Below are positions 33,198 through 50,482 of a stretch of DNA of 64,000 nt, in pieces. The DNA is from Magnetococcales bacterium (GTDB lineage: Bacteria; Pseudomonadota; Magnetococcia; Magnetococcales; Magnetaquicoccaceae), in the NCBI GenBank assembly GCA_015231915.1, contig JADGAR010000017.1, positions 1-64,000 on the forward strand, written 5' to 3'. Every line of letters begins with the position of its first letter. Position 1 is the first letter of the stretch. The notes below the pieces were generated by a model that saw only the letters and a program-made list of their open reading frames with translations, did no database searches and was not told where the DNA came from. Both the position numbers and the translations under genes were made by a program.

Positions 33198-33616
33198 GGT
33201 CTACCAGCTTATGCAACCAAGCTCGAAGAGGCCTGGCCTGCCTGGGGCAGGTCCGCTTCAGGCATGACTTGTTGATTAAAAAAGTTATAGCAATATTAAC
33301 CGCAACCAAAATGCTCTGTCAGACTTTCATCAATCTAGCACCCCGGGCGGTGGCTGTCAATCAGAAGATTGCTCACATATGCCCCACTTGCCCCAAGCCG
33401 ATCACACCCAAAGGAGAGGGTGGTTCAAGCATTACCTGTTGAAATTGTTGATATCTTTATGCAATCAGGTCGTGAATTACCGCAACCATGACCAGCAGAA
33501 ATGCAACCCGCACCCCTTGCAACCCGCAGCGCCTTGAGGCATTCTGCAGCGTGGAAGGCGCCAGGCGCGCTCGACTTTGTTCAGGCAACGACCCCCTTGC
33601 AAGGAAACCGATACCC
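33198..33616. other. Intergenic region, no gene seen
   Basis: 419 bp between the divergent YdcF and LsrF-like genes. It is moderately AT-rich. A 6-bp stem (CCTGCC/GGCAGG, 33237-33251) with no T-run lies in what would be the YdcF leader. The in-frame extension of the downstream ORF back to 33488 has no homology-like features. Promoters for both strands must be here but are not clear. Confidence 0.5.
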
Positions 33617-34492
33617 ATGGCCGATACCGACGATCTGCGCGACACCCACGAATACCACCTCGATACCCCGCAACAGGCAGTGCCGTTCCCCCTCAAGGGG
33701 TGCGACTCCCTGGACTGGGGCATGAAAAACCGGCTTTCGAAAATCTTCTCCCCCCATACCGGTCGCACGGTGATGCTGGCGGTGGATCATGGCTACTTCA
33801 TGGGTCCCACCACCGGCCTGGAACGCATCGATGTCACCATCAACCCCCTGCTGCCCTACGCCGACACCCTCATGTGCACCCGCGGCGTGCTGCGCGCCCT
33901 GACCCCGGCCACCTTCACCAAAGGGGTCTCCCTGCGCGCCAGCGGCGGACCCAGCATCCTCAAGGAACTCTCCGACGAACGGATCGCGGTGGATATCGAG
34001 GACGCCCTGCGCCTCAACGTGGCGGCCATGGCGGTCCAGGTCTTCATCGGCGGCGAGTTCGAAACCCAATCCATCCACAACCTGACCCGCCTGGTGGACC
34101 AGGGGCTGCGCTACGGCCTGCCGGTCCTCGGCGTCACGGCAGTGGGCAAGGAACTGGTGCGCGACGCCAAATACATGCGTCTGGCCACCCGCATCTGCGC
34201 GGAACTGGGCGCCACCTTCGTCAAAACCTACTACGTCGCCAAGGGCTTCGAAACCGTCACCGCCGCCTGCCCGGTCCCCATCGTCATCGCCGGGGGCAAA
34301 AAACAACCCGAACTCGATGCCCTGACCATGGCCTATAACGCCATCCAGCAAGGCGCGGCGGGCGTGGACATGGGCCGCAACATCTTCCAGTCCGAGGCCC
34401 CGGCTGCCATGATCCAGGCGGTGGGCAAGGTGGTCCACGAAGGATACACCCCCAAACTGGCCTACGAGTTCTATCAGGACCTCAAACCATGA
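33617..34492 (+). CDS. Class I DhnA/LsrF-type aldolase
   Basis: 291 residues of the DeoC/LsrF TIM-barrel group. Visible features are [15 protein letters not shown] near the first strand, [21 protein letters not shown], and the Schiff-base Lys in [12 protein letters not shown]. The last part (VIAGGKKQ...[13 protein letters not shown]) binds phosphate. E. coli LsrF handles the phosphorylated autoinducer-2 product, but no other lsr genes are nearby, so a general sugar-phosphate aldol or thiolase role is more likely. AAGGAAA lies 9 nt before the ATG. The ATGA overlap couples it to the next aldolase. Confidence 0.87.
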
Positions 34493-36546
34493 ACAATCGC
34501 TGGTCGGACGTGGAGGCCGCCCGCTGGCAGGACGACCTGGATATCCGCACCTATGCCAGCCGTCTGCTCGGCGCGGAAAAGGGCCTGGTCCTGCACGGCG
34601 GCGGCAACACCTCGGTCAAGGGGAGCGTCCGCGACCTGCTGGGCAATACGGTCCCGGCCATCTTCGTCAAGGCCTCGGGGTGGGACCTGGCCACCATCGA
34701 ACCGTCCGGGCACACCGCCCTCGACCTGGAGGCCCTGCGCAAACTGATCGCCCTCCCCCACCTGGACGACGCGGCCATGGTCAACGCCTTGCGCACCCGC
34801 CTGTTCCAGGCCGACGCAGCCACCCCCTCCATCGAGGCGTTGCTGCACGTCTTTTTGCCACATAAATTCATCGACCACAGCCACGCCGACGCCATCCTGG
34901 CGCTCACGAATCAAGACCATGGGGAAAAACGGGTCCGCGAGGCCCTGGGGGCCGATATCGCGATTCTTCCCTATGTGCACCCCGGTTTTGCCCTGGCCAA
35001 GGCGGTGGCCGAGTTGCACGACCGCACCCCGGGTTGCCGGGCCATGGTGCTGATGCACCACGGTCTCGTCACCTGGGGCAAGACGGCCAAGGAGTCCTAT
35101 TCGACCACCATCGAACTGGTCTCCCGCGCCGAGGCGTTCATCGCCCAGCGCTCCCGCGCCCCCAAGGCCCTGCGCCGGGTCACCACCCTCGCTGCGGCCC
35201 GGGAACGCTATCTGGCGCTGGCTCCGCAGTTGCGCGGCAAGCTGGCCATTCCCACCGGCAACGCGGATCATCCCTGGCAGCGCTTCCTCCTCTCCCCGGT
35301 CATGACCCGCGAGGCCATGAATCTGGTCGATTCCGAACAGGGACGGGAGCTGATCCTCACCCCGCCCCTCACCACGGATCACCTGATCCGTACCAAGGCC
35401 CTGCCCCTTTGGATCGATGACCTGGACGCCATCGGCCCGGCGGTGGAGGGGTATCGTCAGGCCTACAAAGAGATGTTCGAACGCCACGCCGATCCCAAAC
35501 AGCGTCTCACCCCCCACGACTCCTCCCCCCGCGTGATCCTGCTGCCTGGGGTGGGGGCCGTGTGCGTGGGACGCGATGCCAAAGAGCTGGAACTGGTAAA
35601 GGACATCTTCCTGCAAACCGTGCAGGTCAAGAATCAGGTGGCGGCCATGGGGGGAAGCTACGCGGGCCTTGGCGAGGCGGACCTGTTCGCCATGGAGTAC
35701 TATCCCCTGCAATTGGCGAAGCTGGCCAGCCGCAAGGAGCTGCCCCTCTCCCGCACGGTCGCCCTGGTCACCGGAGCGGCGGGGGCCATCGGCTCCGGGA
35801 TCTGCCGCGAATTGTTGCGCAACGGCTGCCATGTGGCGGCGTCCGATCTGCCCGGCGAGGCATTGAACTCGCTTTTTGTCCAATGCAACGACGAATTTCC
35901 GGGCTGCGTCCTGGCGGTGGGCATGGATGTCACCTCCCCGGAGGCGGTGGCTGCCGGGTTCGCCCAGGTGGTGGAAAAATGGGGCGGGGTGGACCTGGTG
36001 ATCCCCAATGCCGGTCTGGCCCATGTCGCCTCCCTGGAGGAGCTGAAGCCGGCCATGTTCCAGAAATTGCAGAAAGTCAACGTGGATGGGACGTTGCTGG
36101 TCCTGGCCGAGGCGGCGCGTCTGTTCCGCAAGCAGGGGACCGGCGGGGATGTGGTGATGATCTCCACCAAAAACGTCTTCGCACCGGGTGCCCGGTTCGG
36201 GGCCTACAGCGCCACCAAGGCAGCGGCCCATCAACTGGCGCGCATCGCCAGCCTGGAATTGGCCGAAATCGGCGTGCGGGTCAACATGGTGGCCCCGGAC
36301 GGGGTCTTTGCCGACGGGGAGCGTCCCTCCGGGCTGTGGGCCGAGGTGGGACCGGATCGCATGAAGGCGCGCGGCCTGGATGCCAACGGGCTGCAGGAAT
36401 ACTACCGCAATCGCAACCTCCTCAAGGCCCGCATCACCGCCACCCATGTGGGCAAGGCGGTGATCTATTTCGCCACTCGCCAGACCCCAACCACCGGGGC
36501 CACCCTGCCGGTGGATGGCGGCCTGCCGGATGCCACGCCTCGATGA
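34489..36546 (+). CDS. Bifunctional class II aldolase / short-chain dehydrogenase
   Basis: 685 residues. Residues ~1-410 are a class II (zinc) aldolase/epimerase module with [20 protein letters not shown] and MHHGLVTWG carrying metal-site histidines. Residues ~425-685 are an NAD(P)-dependent SDR with [16 protein letters not shown] and the catalytic YSATK. This fusion is the family of bifunctional rhamnulose-1-phosphate aldolase/lactaldehyde dehydrogenase proteins. No rhamnose isomerase, kinase or transporter is next to it. With the coupled LsrF-type gene it probably processes a deoxy-sugar phosphate; the exact substrate is not shown. Confidence 0.88.
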
Positions 36547-36553
36547 GCCAGGC

Positions 36554-39500
36554 ATGCAACCTCGTCACCCCAAAGCCAGGGCATTGCTGGAAAGCGGCCT
36601 GTTCAACGATCTGACCCGTTTTGCGGAGCTGGAGTCCCGTCTGCTGGCCATTCCGGACCCGGAGTGGCGGCAGGCGGCCTTTGCGCTGCTGGCCGAGGGG
36701 GTCCTGACCGCCCGTTCCTTGCATCGGGCCGTGGAGGTGTGGCACGCCGGCCATGTGCCGATGGAGGCGCGACGGCGCTGGAGTTTGCCGGAAGCCTTGC
36801 CGGGCGCGGACGGATTCTTTCGTTCCCTGGAAGGCGAGGTGCATGTTTTTCACCTGTTGCTGGTGGAGGAGCGGGAGCGGATCGGCCAGGAGGAGGCTGC
36901 CCGCTTTGCCGGGCTGGCGACCCAGACCTTGCAACCCTTGCTGTTCACCAATGGCGACCGGCTGCCCGTGGCCTGGAAGCGCCTGCCCCCATTCCATTGC
37001 ATTCGCGGGGTGGACCTGGATCGCCTGGAGCCGCGTTTTTTTCCTTTGTTCCGGCGCTGGCTGCAGGGGGCCGGGGCCGCCGTGGAGCGTCCGGTCATGC
37101 CGCCGCACCATGCCGCCGCCCTGGAGAGGATTCAGGCCCTCCTGACGACAGGGGATCGTGCCTCCCTGACCCTCTCCCCTGGCAACGAACCGGAACTGCT
37201 GATGTTGCGCCTCATCCAGCGTCTGGGGGGCCGCCGTACCGTGGTGACGCTGCTCCCGGATGGCGAAACGCTCCTGAACGTGGTGCGCGCCTGGCGTTCC
37301 CACGCCGGGTGGGGAGATCTGGCCGCGTTGCAGGTGGCTGGCGAGGGAGAGATCGTCCATCCGGAACCCGACTTTCCCGTCACCCGTCATCCGGACGGGG
37401 TGCGCCGGTTTTTGTGCTGGTCCCATGCCGGCACGCGGGTGGTGCTGGCCAGCAGGGCAGCCGTGCCCATGCTGGCGCGCGCTTTGTTGGGTTTTCCCCA
37501 GCCTGACCTGCTCATCGGCCTGGAGACCCCCGACGAGGGATTGCCCGCCGGCAAGCGCTGTCTTTTCCGGTTTCCTGGCCCCGGCAACATCGGGGAGATC
37601 CTGCCCCTGCCTCGCCCCTGGCAATTGTTGCTGCTGCCGGTATCCGACGCCCCTCTGGCTGGCCTGGTTGCGGAAATTTTCGCCTGGGCTGCGCAACAGG
37701 AGACGATGCGGCGCATTCATCTGCTTGTGCCCGACGCCGCCGAGGTATCGGCGCCGGATTCCTGGGAGTGGTTGCGTCCGACCCGCGAACAGACCAGGGA
37801 TCGGATTGCCCTGGACCGTTTGTTCCATGCATTCGGCCAGGCCAGGCGGGGTGTGTTGGTCCATTCCGCATCCCTGCTGCCGTTTTGTCCGCCTGCCGAC
37901 CTGGTCATCCTGACGACCCCGCCCAAGGCCGGGCAGTTCGGCGCGCTGCTTGGCTCCGTTCTGACGCCGGGCACCGGTCCCGGCTGTCTGTTGGTTCCGG
38001 TCGTGATGCAAGAGGACGGCTTCGGAGAGAACAGGCTGTTGCAGGAGACCTTGCGGGGTTTGCTGGAGCTGGACGGGGGGTTTGCCGAGCTGGTCCGTTC
38101 CGTCATGGAGGCGTGGGGCCGGGAGGAGCGTCGCGACGACGAGACGCTGACCCGCCGGTTGCGGGTCCTCTCCCCTGTCTGGGAGAGGCCGCTCCTGGAG
38201 GCGTGTCTGGGTCATCTGGGAGATCCCTGGGACCGGCGGTTCGGCGAATTGCAGGCTTACCGCCGGCAACACGGGGATTGCGCGGTGCCCGCCCACTTGC
38301 CGGAACGGCCCGAACTGGCGGAATGGGTGGCGCGGCTGCGCAAGGCCGGACCCGATGTTTTGTCAGCCGCGCGGCTGGCAAGGCTCGAGGAGATCGGCTT
38401 TGTCTGGGATCTGGAGGCTTATGCCTGGGACCAGGAGTGCAGGCGGCTGGAGCGGTTTGCCGCCATTCATGGGCATGCCAGGATTCCGGAACATTATGAA
38501 AAGGACCCGCGCCTGTCGGAGTGGTGCAACCGGCAGCGGCTGTTGTGGCGCCGGGAGCGGCTCGCCCCGGAGCGGATCGCGCGTTTGCATGGGATTCGTT
38601 TTGTCTGGGATCTGGAGGAGGCGGCCTGGGAGGATGCCTTTTCCCAGTTTTTGCAATTCAAAAAATGGCGCGGGCATGGCAAGTTGCCGAACCATCATCC
38701 CGAGGATGTGGCATTGGGGAAATGGGCGGAGCGTCAGCGTCGCGAGTGGTCACTGCAAAAACTGAACCCGACGCGGCAGGAGCGTTTGACGGGTGCGGGT
38801 TTTGTCTGGGACCTGGAGGCAGCGGCCTGGGAGGAGATGTTTTGGCAATTGCAGGCGCATCGCGAGCGGCATGGTCATGGTCGGGTGCCGAAGGAGTGGC
38901 CGGAAGCGCCTGGGTTGGCGGTGTGGGCAGAGGAGCAGCGGCGTTTGCGCGAGCGGGGGACGATGCCCGAGGCGCGGCAGGTGCGTCTGGATGAGATGGG
39001 TTTCGTTTGGGATCTGGAGGCCTGGGAGCGGGAGGAGCGTTTTTCCGAGCTGGTGCGTTATCGGGAGCGGCATGGTCATGTGGAGGTGGTGGAGCCGTGC
39101 GCGGAGTTTCCGTTGTTGCCTGCCTGGGTGCATGCCCAGCGTCGCGGCTGGTTGAAGGGGAGTTTGCCGGAGGCGTGGGTGGCGCGTCTGGAGGGTCTGG
39201 GGTTTGTCTGGGACCCGGTGGAAAAGCGTTGGAACGACGGCTTTGTCGCCTTGACGGCGTTTCATGCCGGGCAGGGTCATTTTCATGTTCCCGGTGAGTG
39301 GCCCCCCTTTCCGGAGTTGCCGGAGTGGGTCAAGGCGCAGCGCACCGCCAGGGAGAAGGGGCGCTTGCCTGCTGACAAGCTGGCCCGTCTGGAGGCGATC
39401 GGGTTTGTCTGGGATGCGCGGGAGGCGGCCTGGGAAGAGCGTTTGCTGGCTTTGAGGCGGTTTCGCGAGCGGCGCAATCACTGTCTGGTGCCCGCGCAAT

Positions 39501-40234
39501 GGAGCGGTGATCCGGAGCTGGCGCGATGGGTGGAGCAGCAGCGCCGCGACTATCGCACTGGCAAATTACCGGATGCGAGGATAACCCGGCTGGAAGAATT
39601 GGGGTTCTTGTGGGATGCCAAGGTGATCTTCTGGGAGGAGATGTATGCCGCGCTCGGCGAATATCGGGAGCAGCATGGGGATTGTCTGGTGCCGGAGGGG
39701 TATGCCGCGCAGTCGCAGTTGGCGTGGTGGGTGGCGGCGCAGCGCAAGGCGCGGGTGGCTGGCCAGTTGGAGGAGGAGCGGTTGCGTCGTCTGGATGCGA
39801 TCGGTTTTGTTTGGGATGCGCAAGAGGCCGATTGGCGGGAGTCGTTGCGTCTCCTGGAGGGGTTTCACGCCCGTTTCGGTCACTGCGCGGTTCCCGCCGA
39901 CTGGCCGGAGAATCCCCGTCTGGCCTCCTGGGTGGTCACCCAGCGCAATGCGCGTCTCAAGGGTCATCTGACCCGCGAGCACGAGGCGGCCTTGTCCGCC
40001 TTGGGGATGATCTGGGATCCCAGGGAGGCGGTGGCGGAGGAGATGATGCAGCAGTTGATCACCTTTCGCGCCACCCATGGCCATTGCGAGGTGCCGCTGG
40101 ATCACCCGGACCATGCCCGGTTGGGTTTGTGGTTGCAATTCCAGCGTCAGGCCTGCAAGGATGGGACTCTGGACGCCTCGCGTCAGCGGCGTTTGACTGC
40201 GATCGGGGTGGAGTGGAAAATTTCGTTTGCGTGA
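36554..40234 (+). CDS. Large protein with decayed SF2-helicase-like half and ten HA repeats
   Basis: 1226 residues. Residues ~555-1226 hold ten helicase-associated (HA) repeats of ~66-70 residues, each following W-x3-F...hG...VP...L..W...QR...G.L...R...L...GFVWD. The first ~550 residues keep the order of an SF2 helicase but not its catalytic residues. The Walker A position reads LSPGNEPELLMLRLI (no GKT), the DEAH position reads DLLIGLETPDEG, and the motif VI position reads GALLGSVLT without arginine fingers. It is therefore probably a non-hydrolysing scaffold or nucleic-acid-binding protein. It starts 7 nt after the preceding gene; an ATG at 36515 is less likely. A diverged copy of its 3' end lies at 42466-42703. 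Confidence 0.78.
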   Translation: MQPRHPKARALLESGLFNDLTRFAELESRLLAIPDPEWRQAAFALLAEGVLTARSLHRAVEVWHAGHVPMEARRRWSLPEALPGADGFFRSLEGEVHVFHLLLVEERERIGQEEAARFAGLATQTLQPLLFTNGDRLPVAWKRLPPFHCIRGVDLDRLEPRFFPLFRRWLQGAGAAVERPVMPPHHAAALERIQALLTTGDRASLTLSPGNEPELLMLRLIQRLGGRRTVVTLLPDGETLLNVVRAWRSHAGWGDLAALQVAGEGEIVHPEPDFPVTRHPDGVRRFLCWSHAGTRVVLASRAAVPMLARALLGFPQPDLLIGLETPDEGLPAGKRCLFRFPGPGNIGEILPLPRPWQLLLLPVSDAPLAGLVAEIFAWAAQQETMRRIHLLVPDAAEVSAPDSWEWLRPTREQTRDRIALDRLFHAFGQARRGVLVHSASLLPFCPPADLVILTTPPKAGQFGALLGSVLTPGTGPGCLLVPVVMQEDGFGENRLLQETLRGLLELDGGFAELVRSVMEAWGREERRDDETLTRRLRVLSPVWERPLLEACLGHLGDPWDRRFGELQAYRRQHGDCAVPAHLPERPELAEWVARLRKAGPDVLSAARLARLEEIGFVWDLEAYAWDQECRRLERFAAIHGHARIPEHYEKDPRLSEWCNRQRLLWRRERLAPERIARLHGIRFVWDLEEAAWEDAFSQFLQFKKWRGHGKLPNHHPEDVALGKWAERQRREWSLQKLNPTRQERLTGAGFVWDLEAAAWEEMFWQLQAHRERHGHGRVPKEWPEAPGLAVWAEEQRRLRERGTMPEARQVRLDEMGFVWDLEAWEREERFSELVRYRERHGHVEVVEPCAEFPLLPAWVHAQRRGWLKGSLPEAWVARLEGLGFVWDPVEKRWNDGFVALTAFHAGQGHFHVPGEWPPFPELPEWVKAQRTAREKGRLPADKLARLEAIGFVWDAREAAWEERLLALRRFRERRNHCLVPAQWSGDPELARWVEQQRRDYRTGKLPDARITRLEELGFLWDAKVIFWEEMYAALGEYREQHGDCLVPEGYAAQSQLAWWVAAQRKARVAGQLEEERLRRLDAIGFVWDAQEADWRESLRLLEGFHARFGHCAVPADWPENPRLASWVVTQRNARLKGHLTREHEAALSALGMIWDPREAVAEEMMQQLITFRATHGHCEVPLDHPDHARLGLWLQFQRQACKDGTLDASRQRRLTAIGVEWKISFA

Positions 40235-40558: not shown

Positions 40559-42025
40559 GTGGATAATAGTAACGCAGATATAGAGAAAATGTGGAGGTTG
40601 TTAGTAGATGTTCAAATATACTTTCGACATGGCATTGCGCAGCAATTGAATTCAGGAATAGCTGGTTTTGGTGATGATGATGCCTATCCTATTCATGAAG
40701 CGCATAGAGCTTTTTTGTATTTGAAGATAAATTTGTCTAAAGAACAAGTTATAGCGATCGAAAATTTATTTGTTGTTATTAAAAAGTTGTTTAATGAATT
40801 TCTTTTCGCTTTAAAGGATATTTTAAAAGCGAAAAAAATTACCAATTCTGATGCACTACTGCAAGCAAATGAGGTCTTGTCTAAAATATCACAAAAATAT
40901 GAAAATGAATTGAAGGATATTCAAAAATATTTTGTTGTTGACTCATTAGCAAGAGTCAATGGATCGGGGGATATTATGTCGAAATTTATTGAGGAAATGC
41001 GCGAGAATAAGTCTGGAGGAATAAAAATTTTTATTAGCCACTCTCATCAGGATTCAGTGTTTGCTGAAAAATTTATTGAATTATTACAAGATTTTATGCC
41101 TAGTTTGTTGGATGAAGAAATTCGATGTACTTCTGTGTCTCAATACGCACTGCCTGCAGGGGCTCAAATTTCTGATATTTTAAAAAGCGACTTAAATCAG
41201 TGCAATATTATTATTGGAATTATTTCAGAAGCAAGTAAATTTTCAAGTTATGTATTATTTGAGCTTGGAGTTGGTTGGTCTCAAAACAAGGCGATTCCAA
41301 TTCTCTGTGGGAATGTCAGCTATGATGATATGCCTGGTCCGTTAAAACAATGCAACGCATTAAGCATGGAAAATATCGATAGCTCAAAAATTATTAAACT
41401 GATGAATGATTTATCAATAAGGATTAATGCAGAAAGCAAGCAAAGCGCAGGTGTTGTTAAAAAAATCGACAACTTCATCAACTGGTATCGTGATTTCCAC
41501 GATAAAAAAAGCGATTTTACGCCAGGAGGTCTTCAAAATATAGCTCAACAAAATGATACATGCTACGATATTGATTTGTCCGTCCACGAAAATGATTTGT
41601 CCGTATTTAATAAATCTTTAAATATTATTTCATCAAAATTTATCTCTAATTTTGTTAATTTTATAATTAACAATTATGCTTTTAGAAATAAAAGTATGGT
41701 CAAATTGGATGAATTTGTTGAATTTTTAAATGACATCGATAATCATTATATTAATCCTGATTTGCTTCATAGTGTTGAAGATCTTATTTTAAAATATGAT
41801 TCTCTTGGAAAGTTTATTGGTGATAACTTTTTTTCTGACAGAACACAGACCGATCTGTTAAAACTGAAACCAGCATGGAATATTGATTCGGGTGAATGGA
41901 GTGGCAATATGGAAAATTGTGAAAAATATAATTTATTGGCAGAGGATTTAAAGAAGCTTGTTTTGGATTTTTATGACTCATATATAAATTATAGAAAATT
42001 AATAAAAAAAATATTGAAACAATAA
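40559..42025 (+). CDS. TIR-domain protein, probable immune effector
   Basis: 488 residues, strongly AT-rich against a GC-rich background, so almost surely acquired. Residues ~1-145 are helical with no named domain. Residues ~152-285 are a TIR_2-type domain: IKIFISHSHQD, a central LPAGAQISDILKSDLNQC segment, and SSYVLFELG, whose Glu235 sits where TIR NADases have the catalytic glutamate. Residues ~290-488 are unassigned and could sense a trigger or oligomerise. Bacterial TIR proteins commonly deplete NAD or make signalling nucleotides in phage defence. Start is uncertain: GTG at 40559 or ATG at 40589. It follows a toxin-antitoxin relic by 7 nt. Confidence 0.78.
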   Translation: MDNSNADIEKMWRLLVDVQIYFRHGIAQQLNSGIAGFGDDDAYPIHEAHRAFLYLKINLSKEQVIAIENLFVVIKKLFNEFLFALKDILKAKKITNSDALLQANEVLSKISQKYENELKDIQKYFVVDSLARVNGSGDIMSKFIEEMRENKSGGIKIFISHSHQDSVFAEKFIELLQDFMPSLLDEEIRCTSVSQYALPAGAQISDILKSDLNQCNIIIGIISEASKFSSYVLFELGVGWSQNKAIPILCGNVSYDDMPGPLKQCNALSMENIDSSKIIKLMNDLSIRINAESKQSAGVVKKIDNFINWYRDFHDKKSDFTPGGLQNIAQQNDTCYDIDLSVHENDLSVFNKSLNIISSKFISNFVNFIINNYAFRNKSMVKLDEFVEFLNDIDNHYINPDLLHSVEDLILKYDSLGKFIGDNFFSDRTQTDLLKLKPAWNIDSGEWSGNMENCEKYNLLAEDLKKLVLDFYDSYINYRKLIKKILKQ

Positions 42026-42042
42026 ATACATTGGCGGTTACT

Positions 42043-42470
42043 GTTGTCCACCACGGCCAGACCAACCCCCTCCCCGGTCTCACGCCACTCGATGCATACC
42101 TCCCCGGTACCGGGAGGACAAAATTTGACCGCATTGGAAAGAAGATTGATGATCACCTGCATGATCTTGTCCCGATCCGCCATCCGCCTGCATGAGATCT
42201 CCGGCACCTTGTTGATCAACCGCACCTGCTTGTTGTCGAACAACTGCCGGGTGGCGTCGATCGCCTCCTGGGCCAGCAGGGGCAGATCCACCTCCACCTC
42301 ATGCCATTCCATCCTGCCCGCGTCGATTTTGGCCAGATCCAGCATCTGATTGACCAGCCGGCTCCACCGCTCGGCCTCCTTGACGATGATGTCGGTGAAA
42401 TTGCGCCTCTCGACCAGATCCATATCCTCGTTGTCCCGCAATATCTCGGAAAAGGCGCGAATCGAGGTCA
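42043..42470 (-). pseudogene. Inverted fragment of the transporter-histidine kinase gene
   Basis: The reverse complement matches 17207-17634 over all 428 positions without gaps; I count about 18 mismatches by eye, most silent. It covers HisKA just after the phospho-His and part of HATPase_c (to VVDN). It has no start or end and cannot make a kinase. An open frame remains across it. It must derive from an allele or close paralogue, not a fresh copy. Confidence 0.9.
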
Positions 42471-42703
42471 TCTGACCCTTGAGCATGAGGCGGCCATGTC
42501 TGCCTTGGGGATGATCTGGGATCCCAGATGCAGCAGTTGATCACCTTTCGCGCCACCCATGGTCATTGCGAGGTGCCGCTGGATCACCCGGACCATGCCC
42601 GGTTGGGTTTGTGGTTGCAATTCCAGCGTCAGGCCTGCAAGGATGGAACTTTGGATGTCACGCGTCAGCGGCGGTTGACCGGGATCGGTGTGGAATGGAA
42701 ATC
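42466..42703 (+). pseudogene. Second, diverged copy of the HA-repeat gene 3' end
   Basis: It matches 39962 to about 40221, the last one and a half HA repeats, with a 22-nt deletion after 42532 that shifts the frame and about 16 substitutions. It then ends in its own stop (VEWKS-stop), differing from the full gene's end. The left edge shares GGTCA with the adjoining kinase fragment. The convergent nuoM-like stop is 55 nt away. Confidence 0.88.
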
Positions 42704-42757: not shown

Positions 42758-44227
42758 TCATTTGCGCATCCCTTCCAGCCACCAGCGCGTGCTGGCATCC
42801 GTCACCTCGAGCAGCGGCGCGGGGTACAGGCCGCCCAGCAGGATCAGCGCCCCGAACGTCAGCATGATCCACCACTCCCGCGGCAGCGGGGCCGGCAGGT
42901 CCGCCGGGAGGTGCCGGTTCAACGGACCCAGGAAAATCTGGCGATAAAATTCGAAAAAGGCCGCCGCGCCCAGGATCACCCCGGTCAGGGCAGCCAGACC
43001 GGCCCCCAGATGGGATTGCAGCACCCCCACCAGCAGCAACAGTTCGCCGGGAAAGCCGGAGGTCAACGGCATGCCGATGCCTGCCAGTCCGAACAGAAAG
43101 CAGAAAAAGGCCAGCCAGGGCAAAGGCCGGGCAATGCCCCCCAGATGGAGCGGATCCAGGGAACCCGTTCTTTGCCGGAGCTGCTCGGTCAGCAGAAAGA
43201 GTCCTCCCGAGGCCAGGGAAAAATTCAGGAGTTGCAGCAGGGCGCCTTGAACCCCCTGCCGGGTGAAGGAGGTCAGGCCCAGGACCACCAGTCCCACATG
43301 GGCGATGCTGGCACAGGCGAGCATGCGGCGCGGATTGCCTTTCGCCAGGGCCGCCAGGCCACCGTACAGGATGGCCACGACACCCAGTCCGGCCAGCAGC
43401 CAATGCAGCTCCCTGGTCACCAGGGGGGCAAGGGGGAACAAAAAGCGCAGCAGGCCGTAGGCCCCCAGTTTCAGGCCGGTCATGATGGCGGCCACGCCTG
43501 CCGGTCCCTCCATGGCCACGGTGATCAGCCAGTTGTGCAGGGGGACCAGGGGGACCTTGACGCCGAAACCCACCAGCAGCAACAGAAAGATCGGCCACTG
43601 CAGCGCCCGGGGCGGCGGATCGGCCAGCAGAGCCGGCAGATCGAACAGGGGCGGGGAGTGGTGCAGTGCGGCCAGCAGGAGTCCGAACAGCAAAAAAACC
43701 CCCCCCGCAAGCATGGTCAGGGTGTATTTGGCCGCAGCGTGGCGGCGGTCGGGGCCGATGCCCCACAAGGCGATCAGGAAATAGATGGGAATCAGGGTCA
43801 GTTCCCAGAAGAGGAAGAACAGCAAGGTATCCAGGGCGCAGAAGATCCCCAGGGTTGCCCCTTCCAGAAAGAGGACAAGCGCGCATTGCAGGTTCGGCAT
43901 GCGGCGATGGTCGGGATTGGCCCCGGACAGGATCACCGCCAGGAAGAGCAACGCCGTCACTGGCAAAAAGAGCACGGAGATGCCGTCGATACCTACGTGA
44001 TACGCACTGCCCAGGGAGGGGATCCAGGGGTGTTTTTCCACCAGCTGGAAGTCGGGGTTGGCGGGATTGAAAGCGAGCAGGGCGCCCAAAGTGGCGCTGC
44101 ATGTCGCCAATCCTCCGGTCAGGGCCGCGCCCTTCGCCAGGCGTCCGTTGACCGGCAGCAGCCAGACCAGCACGCCGCTGATCCAGGGGAGGGCGATGGA
44201 GAGGCTCAGCCAGGGGAGTTGGGTCAT
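42758..44227 (-). CDS. NuoM/MrpD-like ion-translocating membrane subunit (third NuoM-like)
   Basis: 489 residues with about 14 membrane spans, of the complex I NuoL/M/N and Mrp antiporter family. It keeps the key TM5 glutamate (FWELTLIPIY) and TM7 lysine (FGVKVPLVPLHNWL) needed for proton transfer. It is last in the DAB-KOR series and overlaps the previous subunit's stop as ATGA. No other complex I genes are present, so it likely belongs to the DAB-type complex rather than to NADH dehydrogenase. Confidence 0.9.
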   Translation of the reverse strand: MTQLPWLSLSIALPWISGVLVWLLPVNGRLAKGAALTGGLATCSATLGALLAFNPANPDFQLVEKHPWIPSLGSAYHVGIDGISVLFLPVTALLFLAVILSGANPDHRRMPNLQCALVLFLEGATLGIFCALDTLLFFLFWELTLIPIYFLIALWGIGPDRRHAAAKYTLTMLAGGVFLLFGLLLAALHHSPPLFDLPALLADPPPRALQWPIFLLLLVGFGVKVPLVPLHNWLITVAMEGPAGVAAIMTGLKLGAYGLLRFLFPLAPLVTRELHWLLAGLGVVAILYGGLAALAKGNPRRMLACASIAHVGLVVLGLTSFTRQGVQGALLQLLNFSLASGGLFLLTEQLRQRTGSLDPLHLGGIARPLPWLAFFCFLFGLAGIGMPLTSGFPGELLLLVGVLQSHLGAGLAALTGVILGAAAFFEFYRQIFLGPLNRHLPADLPAPLPREWWIMLTFGALILLGGLYPAPLLEVTDASTRWWLEGMRK

Positions 44228-45732
44228 GGCTTTCTGTCCGGTTGCGCGAAGGGTTTTTCCAGTTTTAGGGCAGCGCGGTTCACCAGGTCCAGCCAGGGAT
44301 CGGCGTGAAACCCGGAGAGCAGTTGCACCGCGATGAGCGCGGCGGCGATGGCGGTCTCAGGGCGGGAGGCGCGGGGAATGGCGCTGATCAATACGCCGTT
44401 CGGGCCGGGGGCGGCCAGAAAGGCGCGCTGGAAGGCCCACAGCAGGCAGGCTGCGGCGGCCACGTTGCCCAGGGCCGCCAGCACGGTGATCAGGGCGCCC
44501 TGGTGATCGATGGCCGCCTCCAGCAGCAGATGCACCGCGTCGAAGCCGGGGGTGAGGGGCATCCCCACCACGGAGAGGGCCGCAGTCAGAAAGGCGGTTC
44601 CCACCAACGGCAAACGCGTGAACAGTCCGCCCAGGCGGGGCAGCAGCAGGGTGCGGGTGCGCAGATGGATCATGCCTGCCGTCAGTGCCAGGGTGGAGAT
44701 GGCCAGCCCGAAGGTGGCTGCCAGCAGGATGCTCCCCTGGAAGGCCTGATGATGGAGGGTGAAGAGTCCGATGATCAGGATGCCGGTATGGCTGATCACG
44801 GCAAAGGCGAGCAGTTTGCGCAGGTTCTGCTGGACCAGGGCCAGCAGGGCGCTGTAGAAAATGCCCAGCGCGGCGATGGCGACGGCGTGGGTGTGCCATT
44901 GCCAGACCGCGTCCGGAAAGAGGGGAAAGAGAAAACGGATCATGCCGTAAATCCCGGCCTTGACCCCCAGCATCAGCACCATGGCCGTGGCCACCGTGCC
45001 ATGCTCCATCACCATGGGCAGCCAGCCGTGCAGCGGAAAGATCGGCAGCCGGATCGCCAGGCCATAGAATAGCAGGAAAAATAATATATTTTGCAGATAG
45101 GGGGTGCGATGGTCCCCCATCAGCACCTCCAGTTCGAATCGCCATCCCTGCCCGGAAACGTCGGCGTGATGCCAGCCGAGCATCAACGTGGCGGCCAGCA
45201 GCAAAAGAATGCTGGTGGCCATGAATTGATAATAGCGCACAATCGCCGGCCATTCCGTTTCCCCTCCGGACCACTGGTTGAGCAGGTGGCCGATCAGCAG
45301 GGTGTGGAGCAGGGCCAGCAGCAGAAACCACAACAGATCCAGAATGACGAACTGCCCCATCAGGACCGCCTCGCAGGCGAGCACGGCAGCCAGGTAGCGG
45401 GGCAGCGGGTCGAAGCGGCGCACCAGCCCGCCATAGAGTATGGCCACCAGGGTCAAAAAGGCGGTGAGCAGCACAAAAAGCACCGTGACGCCGTCCGCCC
45501 CCACGGTGTAGACCAGCCAGGAGCCGGCCAGCTCCACCCGGTGCGCCCATTGCCACCCTTCCTGGAGGGGATCGAAATCGAGGTAGAGTCGTATCGCCAG
45601 GGCCAGTTCCCCCAGGCCGCATGTCAGACCCACCAGCCAGGCGAGCGGATTGCCCCGTGCGCGCCAGAGCATGGCGGCCCCGGCCAGGGGGAGGAGTTGC
45701 AGGGCATCCAGAAGAAAACGTGAGTCCGGCAT
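44224..45732 (-). CDS. Divergent NuoM-like membrane subunit (second NuoM-like)
   Basis: 502 residues with about 14 spans. The fold is recognisable from RLPIFPLHGWLPMVMEHG and the YGMIRFLFPL helix. The usual TM5 FWE is replaced (LLALLHTLLIGHLL) and the TM7 lysine by arginine (LAIRLPIF). It may therefore be a structural or altered ion-pathway subunit. It starts 13 nt after the NuoL-like gene with AAGGG upstream and overlaps the next gene by 4 nt. Confidence 0.85.
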   Translation of the reverse strand: MPDSRFLLDALQLLPLAGAAMLWRARGNPLAWLVGLTCGLGELALAIRLYLDFDPLQEGWQWAHRVELAGSWLVYTVGADGVTVLFVLLTAFLTLVAILYGGLVRRFDPLPRYLAAVLACEAVLMGQFVILDLLWFLLLALLHTLLIGHLLNQWSGGETEWPAIVRYYQFMATSILLLLAATLMLGWHHADVSGQGWRFELEVLMGDHRTPYLQNILFFLLFYGLAIRLPIFPLHGWLPMVMEHGTVATAMVLMLGVKAGIYGMIRFLFPLFPDAVWQWHTHAVAIAALGIFYSALLALVQQNLRKLLAFAVISHTGILIIGLFTLHHQAFQGSILLAATFGLAISTLALTAGMIHLRTRTLLLPRLGGLFTRLPLVGTAFLTAALSVVGMPLTPGFDAVHLLLEAAIDHQGALITVLAALGNVAAAACLLWAFQRAFLAAPGPNGVLISAIPRASRPETAIAAALIAVQLLSGFHADPWLDLVNRAALKLEKPFAQPDRKP

Positions 45733-45745
45733 GACGAGCGCCCTT

Positions 45746-47290
45746 TTACAGAATCACCACGAAGGTCAAGGCCAGCAGCAAAAAAAGATAGCGTGGCAGT
45801 CCCAAAAACTCCTCGATGCGGGAGACGTATCCTCCCAGAAAGGTCAGGGCACCCAGCAACCCCTCGCCGCTGCTTTTCAGGATCAGATGTTCCTCGATCC
45901 AGGCCAGGCTGCGTGCGCTGTCTTGCAGGATATGGCCCAGCATCCCCCGGCCACGGGTCACATCGTTGCCGGGCGCAACCGCGTGATCCTTTTCCTGGAC
46001 GCGGGCGGGCAGGGGGGATTCGTTCAGGGGGCGTCCTGCCACGCGGCTGAAGACCCGCGTGTCGAGCAAACGGACCTCCTGGGCCAGCGCACGGGTGGGG
46101 TGGGTGATCAGGGCATCCAGCAAGGCGTCCAGATGAAAGCGGTGCAGGGCCAGCCGATACAGGGTGCGGCTGTTTGCCAGCCAGCCGGGCACCGGACGTA
46201 ACGGCTGCACGGAGAGATGCAGATAGGAGGGGGAGAGCAGGAATTGATACAATCGCCAGATCGTGTGTCCCGTCAGGTGCCACAAAGCCACCTCGAACAG
46301 GCCCGCCCCGCACTCGAAGAAGATCAGGCCGAGCTGGGCCTGGGTGGAGAAGATCAGGGCGCTCTTCACGTCTCCCTGCGCCCGTCCGGCGGCAGCGGCG
46401 TAAACGGCGGTCAGCAGTCCCACCGGCATCAGGAACGCCAGCCAGAACGGCGCGCGCCACAGGAGCGGTTCCAGGCGGATCACCAGAAAGGCCCCGGCGT
46501 GGGCCATCAGGGCGCCGTAGAAGATCGCGCTGGAGGGGGTGGGGCCTTCCAGGGCGCGGGCGATCCAGCCTGCGAAGGGGAGCTGGGCCGATTTGGCCAG
46601 TGCGGCCACCAGGAATCCTGCGGCCATCATCCCGGCCAGCAGGGAGTCGAGTTTCGCGACCCCCGTAAAGACATTCCGCCATTCCAGGGTGTCGAGAAAC
46701 AGAAAGGTCATGGCGATGCCCAGGAGAAAACCGGCGTCCCCGAAGCGGTTGGTCAACACCGCGCGGGTGGCGTTGCAGGTGGCGGTGCGCCGGTCGTAAG
46801 CGTAGCCGATCAGCAGATAGGAGCTGATGCCCGCCGCCTCCCAGCCAATAAAGGTCAGCACCACGTTGTCCGCCAGGGCCACCCACATCATGCCGCCGAC
46901 AAACAGCGACAGCACGAGAAAGAAGCGGTGAAAGCCCGCCTCCCGGTGCAGGTAGTCCACCGCGAAGCGCATGGTCAGCAGGCCGCAGCCGGCGGCCAAG
47001 GTGCCCATGACCAGCGCGGGCAGATCCGTCAACAGGCCCAGGGTCACCCGGAAGTGGCCGCTCTCCAGCCAGGTGATCCGGCTGGCAGGTGGCAGAATGC
47101 CTTTTGTGGCGGCCAGGAGGTCCAGCACCGTCATGCCCAGCACCGCCAAACCGGTGCACAGCAGCGCGATGCGGGCCGTTCCCCGTTCCCCGGCCTCGCC
47201 GCAGCGACTTCCGGTCAGCATCCCCAGGCCGATCCATGCCCCTCCCAGCCAGGGGAGCAGGGGAATCAGCAGCCGCCAGGCATCCGTCAT
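45746..47290 (-). CDS. dabB: NuoL-like subunit of DAB inorganic-carbon pump (DabB)
   Basis: 514 residues with about 14 spans, short of the C-terminal lateral helix of true NuoL. Signature parts are FIGWEAAGISSYLLIG (glutamate), ALAKSAQLPFAGWI (lysine) and GPTPSSAIFYG. DabB proteins energise DabA with a cation gradient. The ATG at 47290 is set by ATGA overlap with the dabA stop; a much longer open frame upstream, to 50011, is a shadow of dabA. Pairing with DabA is direct, so the assignment is firm; the ion is not shown. Confidence 0.9.
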   Translation of the reverse strand: MTDAWRLLIPLLPWLGGAWIGLGMLTGSRCGEAGERGTARIALLCTGLAVLGMTVLDLLAATKGILPPASRITWLESGHFRVTLGLLTDLPALVMGTLAAGCGLLTMRFAVDYLHREAGFHRFFLVLSLFVGGMMWVALADNVVLTFIGWEAAGISSYLLIGYAYDRRTATCNATRAVLTNRFGDAGFLLGIAMTFLFLDTLEWRNVFTGVAKLDSLLAGMMAAGFLVAALAKSAQLPFAGWIARALEGPTPSSAIFYGALMAHAGAFLVIRLEPLLWRAPFWLAFLMPVGLLTAVYAAAAGRAQGDVKSALIFSTQAQLGLIFFECGAGLFEVALWHLTGHTIWRLYQFLLSPSYLHLSVQPLRPVPGWLANSRTLYRLALHRFHLDALLDALITHPTRALAQEVRLLDTRVFSRVAGRPLNESPLPARVQEKDHAVAPGNDVTRGRGMLGHILQDSARSLAWIEEHLILKSSGEGLLGALTFLGGYVSRIEEFLGLPRYLFLLLALTFVVIL

Positions 47291-50200
47291 GGGCGTTCCT
47301 CCGGTACGATGAGTGCGGGGGGCAGGGGTCCGGAATGGCCCGCGTACCAGGCCCGGGACGAAGGGGTGCGAGCGATCCCGGGTGCGGGATCGTTCCAGGG
47401 TTGCCAGCCGCCGGCGGGGTCGAACAGATGGATCGCGCCGTCTTCCGGGTCGATGGCGGCCAGGATGATCCAGGCGTTGCCCACCAGTTCGCGGATTTCC
47501 GGCTGCCTCTGGTAGATGGCGGTGAGGATGGCCGGCTTTTGCTCCACGATCACCAGCAGTCGCATGGCCTCGTGGATCTCGATCATCTGTTGCGGCAGGC
47601 CGGTGCGCAGGTCCGAGCCGGTCCCTTCCATGACCCCGAACAGCCCGGTGATGTTGTGTACCACCTTGGTCCCGCAGCCGTAGCGGTCGTTGTCCACAGT
47701 GGAAAAATAATACTCCAGGCTGATGCCGGCCCCCACGGGTCCGGCAGCGAGCAGAATCCCTTCCACGATGCTGCCGTCCGGGTCCTGGGTGGGGTCGTAG
47801 GAGATCAGGAACATGCGCCGGTCGAAGAAGGCCCCGCGGGTCACGGAGCGTCGGCCAATGAGGGCTGCGGCATTGGTGGCGTGCCCCAGTTCCGGTCTGG
47901 CCTGGCTGAAGTCCAGGCCGCGCCGCTCCATGTGGGTCAAGGCCTTTGCCGGGGACGCCTGGCGTGGGGCCGAGGCCAGTCGTCGGGCACGCTCGTGGGC
48001 CGAATCGGCTCGTGCCGTGTCCAGCATTCCGGTCAGGCGGGTCAACGTCTCTTGCAGGGAGGCCGGGACCTGGTCGCGGTCGAACCAGTCGATGGTCTCG
48101 TTGCCGGTATTGTGTTCCCCGCCGATGAACCAGCACTCCTGCGGGATATCGATGCCTTGTTGCCGCAGCCGTTCCCGCACCTCGGGACGGTTGGCCATGG
48201 CCGCGAACAGGCGGGCGTTCGGCCCGCCGTGGCGACCGCTGCACGCCCCGCAGTCGTAGGCCGCCATGTGGGGATTGTTCAGACTGCTGGAGCCGTGGCC
48301 CAGAATCACCACCAGGGGAGAGAATCCGTAAGTCAGACCGGTGTTGCGCAAAAAGCCCGCCACCCGTGCGGTCTGCTCGGCGTCGGTGAATCCGGTGCGC
48401 GGGGCGGCGGGAGAGGCCTGCCGGTGGTCCTCCGGGGCATTGAGAGCCATCACGGTGGGCAATGGCGGGTCGAAGCGGGTGCGCAACGCCTGGGTCATCC
48501 AACCCCAGACACGGGGAAACGTCAACCGGCCCAGCAAAGCCGTCAAGACCGCCGGGGCAGCGGTCAGACTCAGCAAGGTCGGCCAGACCACGCCCCGGTG
48601 ACTCTCCCGATGGAGCAGAACCCGACAGCCCTCCAGCAGACCGCGCCGCCGCCGATGGTGCCGCAGATGCGCCTCCGCACCGGGCGAGACCTCCTCGCGC
48701 ACCTCGTTGGCGGGTGTGACCACCACCGGACAGAGCGCCGTCGAGGCCGGATCGTCCACCCCGCGCCAGTTGACCGGCACCCCGAAAAAGCCCGGCCCCC
48801 CCAGGGTTTCGATCTCCGGCACCCGTTCCTCCAGGTGTCTGCGGATTCCCTCTTCGCGGTCGTCCATGCAGAAGACCACCTGGGCCAGGGGCGCGCGTTC
48901 CCGGCGCGCCCATGCGCCACGACCGCGATTGGCGTTCAGGGCCGCCAGGATCCGGTTGCGGTAGTGCCGTTCGTATGCCTGCAACCAGAGGTATCCGGTC
49001 TTCTCGTCGTTGAGGCTGCGCAACAGGTCGAGCATCGACGCGATGGTGTCCGGCGCCAGGGCGCGCACGCCTTCCGCCTCCAGCCCCAGATGCTGGGCGA
49101 GCACGAACAGTGGCCATGCCTCGTCCCCCGCGCCACCTGCGGCGCCAGGGTTGTCCCGCTCCATGGCGCGGATCCGGTGGGCCAGATCGCGCCACTCCTG
49201 GTCGCGCCGTGCATCCTCGCCGCACTCCCAGGTCAGCCGACCGGCGTGCGCGGCGAGAAATTCCGGCAATTCCCGGTTGAACAGCGCCAGGCGGGCGTAA
49301 AGCTCGCCACGATGGCTGCGGAAATGCCAGCCCAGAATCCCCAGGGAAGGCTCCACCCGCCAGAGGGTCCGGCAGAGCCGGGCGGCGTAATACCACTCCA
49401 GCGCCAGCCGCACCGCCAGATAATCGGCCATCTCCACCCGGGTGCGCACGTTGCCGTAGCCGGGCCGCAGCGACCGCCACATGATCATGCCCGACCATCC
49501 GGGCAGCTCCAGGGCGAGCCGTTCCAGATACTCCTCCCAGCGCTCTTCCGGCACGCCGATTCTTTCCAGGCAGCTTTCGATGGCCTCCATGGCGTTCATC
49601 CCGGAGAACTCCACGGCCAGTTCCGCAGCCTCGCCGGCGGCATGGTTCCGCCAGGCGGTCCACAACCCGTCGTTGCGCTCCGGCAGGGACCAGGAGGCGA
49701 CTCCCAGATCCAGAAAACCGGCCAGCGCCCGCGTCAACTCCGGTCGCATCTCTTCCAGGATATCCTCCCCGGTGAGGGCCAGCAGCAATCCACGCAGGGT
49801 CAGCTCCGTTCCCATCCGGTCCATGAGGCCGTGCCACAGGGCATCCGCCTCCCGGCGCACCTCCTCGTCGATTCCTTCCCGCTGGGCGCGGTCCGCGCGC
49901 AGCATCGCCTCGGTGGGGAACAGCGGCGTCTCTTCGGCCTCCGCGTCGAGACGGGATTCCCGGCGCCAGACATCGTGGACCCGACCGAGCCGGTCCATGA
50001 TCGCCTGCCACACCCCCGCCACATCCCTGGTCTGCGCCCCGGGTCGGGGACGGGTCAGGGCATCCCGCTCCTCGATCTCCCAGGTCAGGCGTGCCGCGGT
50101 GAGCGGCCCGATTCCATGGACCATGATCAGGCGGATGATCTCGCCCCGGGTAACGGGACCGAGGGGTTGGCCGGCGGCAAGCTCCGGGTCGCCGGCGATG

Positions 50201-50466
50201 ACCGCCGTCAGGTCTTCCGGCTGGATGCGACCTTCCCGGTAGAGGGCGCGGAATTTTTCTCCCGACAGATAGCCGTAGTTGCCGGTCAGCTTGCGCGCCG
50301 CAGTCAGCGCGTCCGGAAAGGGGAGGTGCTGATGGCCGTGCAGGGTGTTGTGATGGACGAAGTCGGCAAGCGGCGCCTGGGCCGGCAGGAGGTGCTCCAG
50401 GTGGTGCAGACCCTGTTGGATGCGTTCCCGTCTGGTGAGGGGGATGTGGGATTCCGAATGGGACAT
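47287..50466 (-). CDS. dabA: DabA (DUF2309/UPF0753) inorganic-carbon transport subunit
   Basis: 1059 residues. DabA is a beta-carbonic-anhydrase-like zinc protein which, with DabB, converts CO2 to bicarbonate inside the cell in an energy-coupled way. All zinc ligands are visible: Cys533 and Asp535 (VVFCMDDREEG), His724 (ILGHGSSS) and Cys739 (YDCGACSGRHGG). The His-Cys spacing of 15 equals that described for Halothiobacillus DabA. The ATG at 50466 is used; a GTG at 50478 is also possible. It sits between a NuoM-like gene (16 nt upstream) and dabB (ATGA overlap). Confidence 0.95.
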   Translation of the reverse strand: MSHSESHIPLTRRERIQQGLHHLEHLLPAQAPLADFVHHNTLHGHQHLPFPDALTAARKLTGNYGYLSGEKFRALYREGRIQPEDLTAVIAGDPELAAGQPLGPVTRGEIIRLIMVHGIGPLTAARLTWEIEERDALTRPRPGAQTRDVAGVWQAIMDRLGRVHDVWRRESRLDAEAEETPLFPTEAMLRADRAQREGIDEEVRREADALWHGLMDRMGTELTLRGLLLALTGEDILEEMRPELTRALAGFLDLGVASWSLPERNDGLWTAWRNHAAGEAAELAVEFSGMNAMEAIESCLERIGVPEERWEEYLERLALELPGWSGMIMWRSLRPGYGNVRTRVEMADYLAVRLALEWYYAARLCRTLWRVEPSLGILGWHFRSHRGELYARLALFNRELPEFLAAHAGRLTWECGEDARRDQEWRDLAHRIRAMERDNPGAAGGAGDEAWPLFVLAQHLGLEAEGVRALAPDTIASMLDLLRSLNDEKTGYLWLQAYERHYRNRILAALNANRGRGAWARRERAPLAQVVFCMDDREEGIRRHLEERVPEIETLGGPGFFGVPVNWRGVDDPASTALCPVVVTPANEVREEVSPGAEAHLRHHRRRRGLLEGCRVLLHRESHRGVVWPTLLSLTAAPAVLTALLGRLTFPRVWGWMTQALRTRFDPPLPTVMALNAPEDHRQASPAAPRTGFTDAEQTARVAGFLRNTGLTYGFSPLVVILGHGSSSLNNPHMAAYDCGACSGRHGGPNARLFAAMANRPEVRERLRQQGIDIPQECWFIGGEHNTGNETIDWFDRDQVPASLQETLTRLTGMLDTARADSAHERARRLASAPRQASPAKALTHMERRGLDFSQARPELGHATNAAALIGRRSVTRGAFFDRRMFLISYDPTQDPDGSIVEGILLAAGPVGAGISLEYYFSTVDNDRYGCGTKVVHNITGLFGVMEGTGSDLRTGLPQQMIEIHEAMRLLVIVEQKPAILTAIYQRQPEIRELVGNAWIILAAIDPEDGAIHLFDPAGGWQPWNDPAPGIARTPSSRAWYAGHSGPLPPALIVPEERP

Positions 50467-50482
50467 GGGACGTGCCACGGTT

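Follow-up and report, generated by a model that had tools for sequence, protein, structure and literature searches.

A doubly degenerate restriction-type nuclease/helicase with tandem HA repeats is conserved across the order Magnetococcales

The gene at positions 36554 to 40234 of the window (the whole stretch of DNA analysed, 64,000 nucleotides) encodes a protein of 1,226 amino acids that is very probably a pseudoenzyme, and this doubly dead protein is an order-wide core family of the magnetotactic Magnetococcales. It was classed as a pseudoenzyme because its catalytic sites have been lost family-wide, the gene has been retained, dN/dS values are low and all members fall into a single clade. 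The best explanation, in which we have moderate confidence, is that a pseudo-nuclease/pseudo-helicase has been passed down vertically and retained as an HA scaffold that works without ATP and probably binds nucleic acid. The open reading frame with its ten HA repeats, as given in the preliminary description, is real and far beyond chance, as judged by Pfam and by the exact register of the repeats. An alignment of N-terminal halves showed that M1 is conserved in the relatives, and the ATG at 36554 was therefore preferred over an in-frame upstream ATG at 36515. The layout of the gene is as follows.

36554 to 40234, forward strand: pseudo-nuclease/pseudo-helicase with ten HA repeats, 1,226 aa (ATG at 36554, stop at 40234)
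36554 to 37093, forward strand: residues 1-180, N-terminal region including a degenerate Mrr/PD-(D/E)XK nuclease domain (LlaBIII profile match from profile position 61; alpha/beta elements in the model; conserved columns)
36809 to 36859, forward strand: residues 86-102, ghost of the nuclease active site, H-L-L as against Q-x-K in intact relatives (no Lys in the Lys column, 34 members)
37094 to 37648, forward strand: residues about 181-365, RecA-like domain 1 of the dead helicase (profile, model and fold search; boundary approximate)
37175 to 37195, forward strand: residues 208-214, ghost of motif I, SPGNEPE (Lys of GKT kept in 0/34 members)
37520 to 37531, forward strand: residues 323-326, ghost of motif II, LETP for DEAH (Walker B Asp in 1/34 members)
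37649 to 38128, forward strand: residues about 366-525, RecA-like domain 2 of the dead helicase (profile, model and fold search; boundary approximate)
37943 to 37966, forward strand: residues 464-471, ghost of motif VI, ALLGSVLT for QxxGRxxR (first Arg in 1/34 members)
38216 to 40225, forward strand: ten HA repeats of 67 aa (201 bp) each, units starting at 38216 + 201 x n (Pfam, register, AlphaFold array of three-helix units)

Scans of the single protein with Pfam, NCBIfam and PADLOC found nothing in residues 1-549, and the helicase became visible only through a family profile built from 32 aligned N-terminal halves of relatives. Searched against the PDB, this profile matched LlaBIII (4xqk) over profile positions 61-593, spanning the Mrr nuclease and both RecA domains (E=2.9e-35), and LlaGI (5ffj, a nuclease-deleted construct) across the RecA domains (E=2.9e-34). 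Pfam Helicase_C was still matched by 6 of the 32 relatives (best E=2.2e-5). An AlphaFold model of residues 1-691 (pLDDT 88.3, pTM 0.81) returned LlaBIII as the top Foldseek match in the PDB (E=1.2e-18), with LlaGI second and other SF2 enzymes thereafter. The SF2 restriction-type helicase plan that had been proposed for the N-terminal half was thus borne out by profile search, model and fold search; the lack of a helicase fold on structure prediction had been named as grounds for dismissing it, and such a fold was predicted. Absent from the preliminary description was the degenerate Mrr/PD-(D/E)XK nuclease domain that precedes the helicase, and it is in this N-terminal region that most of the order-wide invariant alignment columns sit (L16, E27, N133 and W169). 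Type ISP enzymes are described as combining an Mrr nuclease, an SF2 helicase-like ATPase, a coupler, a methyltransferase and a DNA-recognition domain in a single chain (PMC4666363). LlaBIII and LlaGI, the best PDB matches by both sequence and structure, share with the family the order Mrr nuclease, RecA1, RecA2; where they have a methyltransferase, coupler and target recognition domain, however, the family has the HA array, and the nuclease and ATPase sites have been lost from its homologous domains.

The extent of this loss was established in an alignment of 34 family members to which eleven helicases not belonging to the family, of restriction type or with HA repeats, were added. None of the 34 retained the nuclease lysine (leucine in the window protein) or the P-loop lysine, and the Walker B aspartate and the first arginine of motif VI were each present in a single member and absent from the window protein. 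Motif I reads SPGNEPE in the window protein as against ACGTGKT in intact relatives, motif II reads LETP(DEG) as against DEAH, and motif VI reads ALLGSVLT as against QxxGRxxR, confirming the earlier claim that each of these catalytic motifs is altered. Several members carry an '[ED][AS]H' ghost at the DEAH position, and the first P-loop glycine is often kept. The missing residues strongly indicate that ATP hydrolysis or DNA cutting by the ancestral chemistry would be impossible for this protein. A helicase fold, loss of the motifs throughout the orthologous group and purifying selection, the combination by which a pseudohelicase is recognised, were found together.

The gene was present in 44 of 48 Magnetococcales genomes, being missing from G007, G008, G014 and G041, and the family is single-copy and near-universal in the order. 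Pairwise dN/dS ranged from 0.06 to 0.35 in the N-terminal half and from 0.06 to 0.22 in the HA array (the larger dS values are rough through saturation, and one HA pair yielded no dS), in agreement with the earlier statement that the protein is under selection. Identity was higher in the HA half than in the N-terminal half in 14 of 16 pairs. In a maximum-likelihood tree of the helicase part, made with a quick method and containing some long branches, all 34 members grouped in a single clade (SH-aLRT 100) that branches from within the HA helicases, the Type ISP enzymes lying outside. In one other family, outside the order, 5 of 74 genomes matched the N-terminal profile, mostly through weak helicase matches; one of these five (G104) encodes an HA helicase, split over contigs, in which motifs II and VI are intact. 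Intact HA helicases were also found in Hydrogenophaga, Pseudomonas and Streptomyces plasmids. Another of the five genomes, G140, contains a lone ORF of 48 aa (L120:511-657, reverse strand) that resembles only the first 47 residues of the family (E=3.9e-10) and is perhaps a relic of the gene.

These data bear on two readings that would deny the family its pseudoenzyme status. That the gene is merely a damaged helicase on its way out is barely credible: catalytic motifs have indeed been lost and relatives with intact motifs do exist, as had been foreseen as a possible objection, but such relatives occur only outside the order-wide clade, no orthologue with intact motifs was found inside Magnetococcales among the 34 aligned members, and the ORF is intact in full-length orthologues. 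A decayed single copy was accordingly rejected on order-wide retention and a dN/dS well below 1. It is likewise very improbable that the motor is still alive by means of a re-invented, non-canonical NTP site. The core fold has been kept, in a high-confidence model, as has the first P-loop glycine in many members, but the ex-catalytic columns are unconserved and hold many different residues, so that no replacement site is visible; the family alignment showed no new conserved polar cluster in the RecA domains, and it is the N-terminal region that holds the majority of the invariant residues.

PF03457 (HA) was the sole Pfam match to the protein, in ten stretches (whole-protein E=1.8e-156), with ten GF-W signatures spaced exactly 67 residues apart. 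Most complete relatives have 8-13 repeats, two full-length-looking frames (one at a contig end) have 4-5, and ten are likewise present in a plasmid protein of Rhodococcus opacus. The run had been called unusually long, which was therefore overstated, and the notion that ten repeats are unique was rejected. AlphaFold gave regular three-helix units for the ten-repeat array (pLDDT 89.5) with uncertain overall geometry (pTM 0.48); Foldseek found no similar solved fold for the complete array (best E=0.47), and 2kta was the only solved structure of a single HA domain found by sequence (E=2.6e-9). Repeats correspond by position among close relatives (L009, L043), and in distant relatives only some do so, repeat 8 most consistently. 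The basic helix positions QR, R52, R55 and K45 of HA repeats from outside the order are retained in the family, QR being found in 99% of family repeats versus 96% of those outside. The loop, however, reads 'PxLAxW' in the family versus 'xLGxW' in active HA repeats, suggesting that the HA ligand may have changed. Net charge averages -0.56 per repeat (range -2.8 to +1.6), as compared with -0.7 to +4.1 per repeat in HA proteins outside the order; because the family arrays are thus net neutral to acidic, DNA binding is something that we infer.

The two genes that precede the pseudo-helicase encode metabolic enzymes.

33554 to 34492, forward strand: DhnA/LsrF-type class I aldolase, upstream in the conserved gene order (NCBIfam NF006081, E=8e-150; 33488 is a further possible in-frame start)
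34489 to 36546, forward strand: bifunctional aldolase II/short-chain dehydrogenase, order-wide conserved neighbour (NCBIfam NF006194, E=4e-256; synteny)

The stop codon of the aldolase/short-chain dehydrogenase gene lies 7 bp before the pseudo-helicase ATG. In 34 of 40 loci the pseudo-helicase was found directly downstream of this gene on the same strand, an operon-like arrangement with a gap of ≤60 bp in 25 of those 34, and the DhnA/LsrF-type aldolase often lies upstream of the pair; of the remaining six loci, three stop at a contig edge or close to one, and in the other three the upstream sequence does not contain the aldolase. Two genomes lacking the pseudo-helicase, G008 (99% complete) and G041 (78% complete), were also without a full-length aldolase match, whereas G007 and G014 have kept the aldolase; the link is suggestive but not strict. 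No conserved nuclease or methyltransferase gene was seen adjoining the pseudo-helicase, and the family matched no PADLOC model.

The proposed origin is a single-chain protein with an Mrr-type nuclease, an SF2 DNA translocase and HA repeats, whose front half would have been related to Type ISP enzymes. The nuclease lysine, P-loop, Walker B residue and arginine finger would then have been lost in one lineage before the Magnetococcales radiation, a timing that is supported, and the dead gene would have been inherited vertically behind the aldolase/short-chain dehydrogenase gene. As the cutting and ATP-burning sites have been lost and the HA repeats are the best-preserved part, the protein is probably a static, most likely DNA-bound, scaffold. 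The array would still bind nucleic acid, probably dsDNA, via the basic QR...R..R face common to active HA helicases, and a partner protein may be held by the rigid dead core, chiefly by its conserved N-terminal pseudo-nuclease domain. The whole would then act as a scaffold or regulator that is static and tethered to DNA, in the manner of Deinococcus PriA. Judged from sequence, a role of the HA array as a DNA tether is on balance favoured. The charge of the arrays, the changed loop, the failure of the whole array to match a solved fold and the metabolic rather than DNA-related neighbours all speak against this reading. The charge, the loop and the tight pairing with metabolic genes would suit a pseudoenzyme in which the HA array forms a solenoid for contacts with proteins or RNA, perhaps one organising the co-encoded aldolase/dehydrogenase, with DNA no longer the ligand. 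This alternative, which we regard as possible but rather unlikely, also draws on the joint absence of pseudo-helicase and aldolase from G008 and G041; the basic HA helix positions are, however, kept at frequencies like those of active helicases, and G007 and G014, with the aldolase alone, indicate that the enzymes do not depend on the pseudo-helicase.

An ancestry in restriction enzymes could also point to a regulatory decoy or subunit in a defence system, where the dead motor would partner an active nuclease, helicase or methyltransferase from another locus. In HA helicases from outside the order, which are on plasmids, the helicase part matches PADLOC restriction models, and one relative (G018) has in its genome a further protein, of 1,677 aa, that is Type ISP-like and whose motifs are intact. 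Such a role nevertheless seems distinctly improbable, given the absence of a PADLOC match to the family and of a conserved nuclease or methyltransferase neighbour, and given a gene found once per genome in almost the whole order, in synteny with metabolic genes, where defence genes are sporadic. The preferred reading of a retained, ATP-independent HA scaffold can be extended to a restriction-type nuclease/translocase domesticated at the base of the order as an ATP-independent core chromosomal protein, in which 8-13 HA modules would read DNA in tandem, each orthologous repeat at its own site, the dead nuclease would serve as a partner dock and expression would be tied to the aldolase operon; in this full form the proposal is speculative and unlikely.

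The closest group to the family in the tree is formed by active SF2 HA helicases (PF03457), such as the 'DEAD/DEAH box helicase' of a Pseudomonas aeruginosa megaplasmid and of a Hydrogenophaga plasmid, which likewise consist of a homologous core followed by tandem HA repeats. These keep GKT, DEAH and QxxGRxxR, have no N-terminal pseudo-nuclease domain in the cases read, and carry 4-6 repeats on plasmids, as against the 8-13 of family members; the window protein shares their two RecA-like domains and C-terminal PF03457 but lacks the Walker A lysine, the DExH and the motif VI arginine. A selected helicase fold with lost motifs is known from Deinococcus radiodurans PriA and yeast Utp25 (PMC4504706; PMC9539457), which belong to other families, neither being reported with HA repeats or a dead nuclease domain; PriA keeps DNA binding and protein contact without ATPase activity (PMC4504706). 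Tandem HA repeats without an active helicase also occur in HA-only proteins; unlike the family, those from Mycobacterium intracellulare (L136:3393-5252, 620 aa, 8 repeats) and Arthrobacter (L137:3447-4301, 285 aa, 4 repeats) have no helicase or nuclease remnant, are on plasmids and keep the xLGxW loop. Another, at G098:C67:95457-96248, has 4 repeats and no helicase. With such proteins elsewhere and an order-wide core family here, the impression of a little-described single oddity was overstated. A Rhodococcus plasmid HA helicase (L138:1482-4544) keeps GTGKT, but its DEAH is replaced by DDAE and its GRAxR by GHAVR, which may reflect an independent, partial loss of motor function.

Among the titles and abstracts returned for PF03457 or the helicase associated domain, none apparently dealt with bacterial HA arrays, and no paper was found to connect Magnetococcales with restriction and helicases. 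The literature already knows pseudohelicases, Type ISP enzymes and HA helicases; the doubly dead nuclease/helicase with HA repeats, fixed throughout an order, did not turn up in the papers searched. In bacteria, pseudohelicases have seldom been noticed. A restriction-enzyme relative that is dead at both sites and serves a whole order as a core gene would plainly illustrate how a defence-type enzyme can become a housekeeping protein. HA domains are found in many bacterial helicases but have hardly been studied (one solved structure was found here); as the family's arrays come without motor activity to confuse binding assays, the question of the HA ligand would be directly testable.

Downstream of the gene, its last ~85 codons (39962-40219) recur in degenerate form at 42466-42701, 2.5 kb away, with 92-94% identity in two blocks and a 22-bp deletion. 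The AT-rich stretch between the gene end and this copy holds a TIR gene (40568-42022; PADLOC spbK, E=1e-14) and a histidine-kinase fragment (41989-42486, reverse strand), and from the duplicated end and the AT-rich insert it seems that foreign DNA entered at the 3' end of the HA gene. Further on, at 42758-50478 on the reverse strand, NuoM/NuoL-like proteins adjoin a large protein ending at 47287, a cluster that we take to resemble a DabA/DabB-type inorganic carbon transporter.
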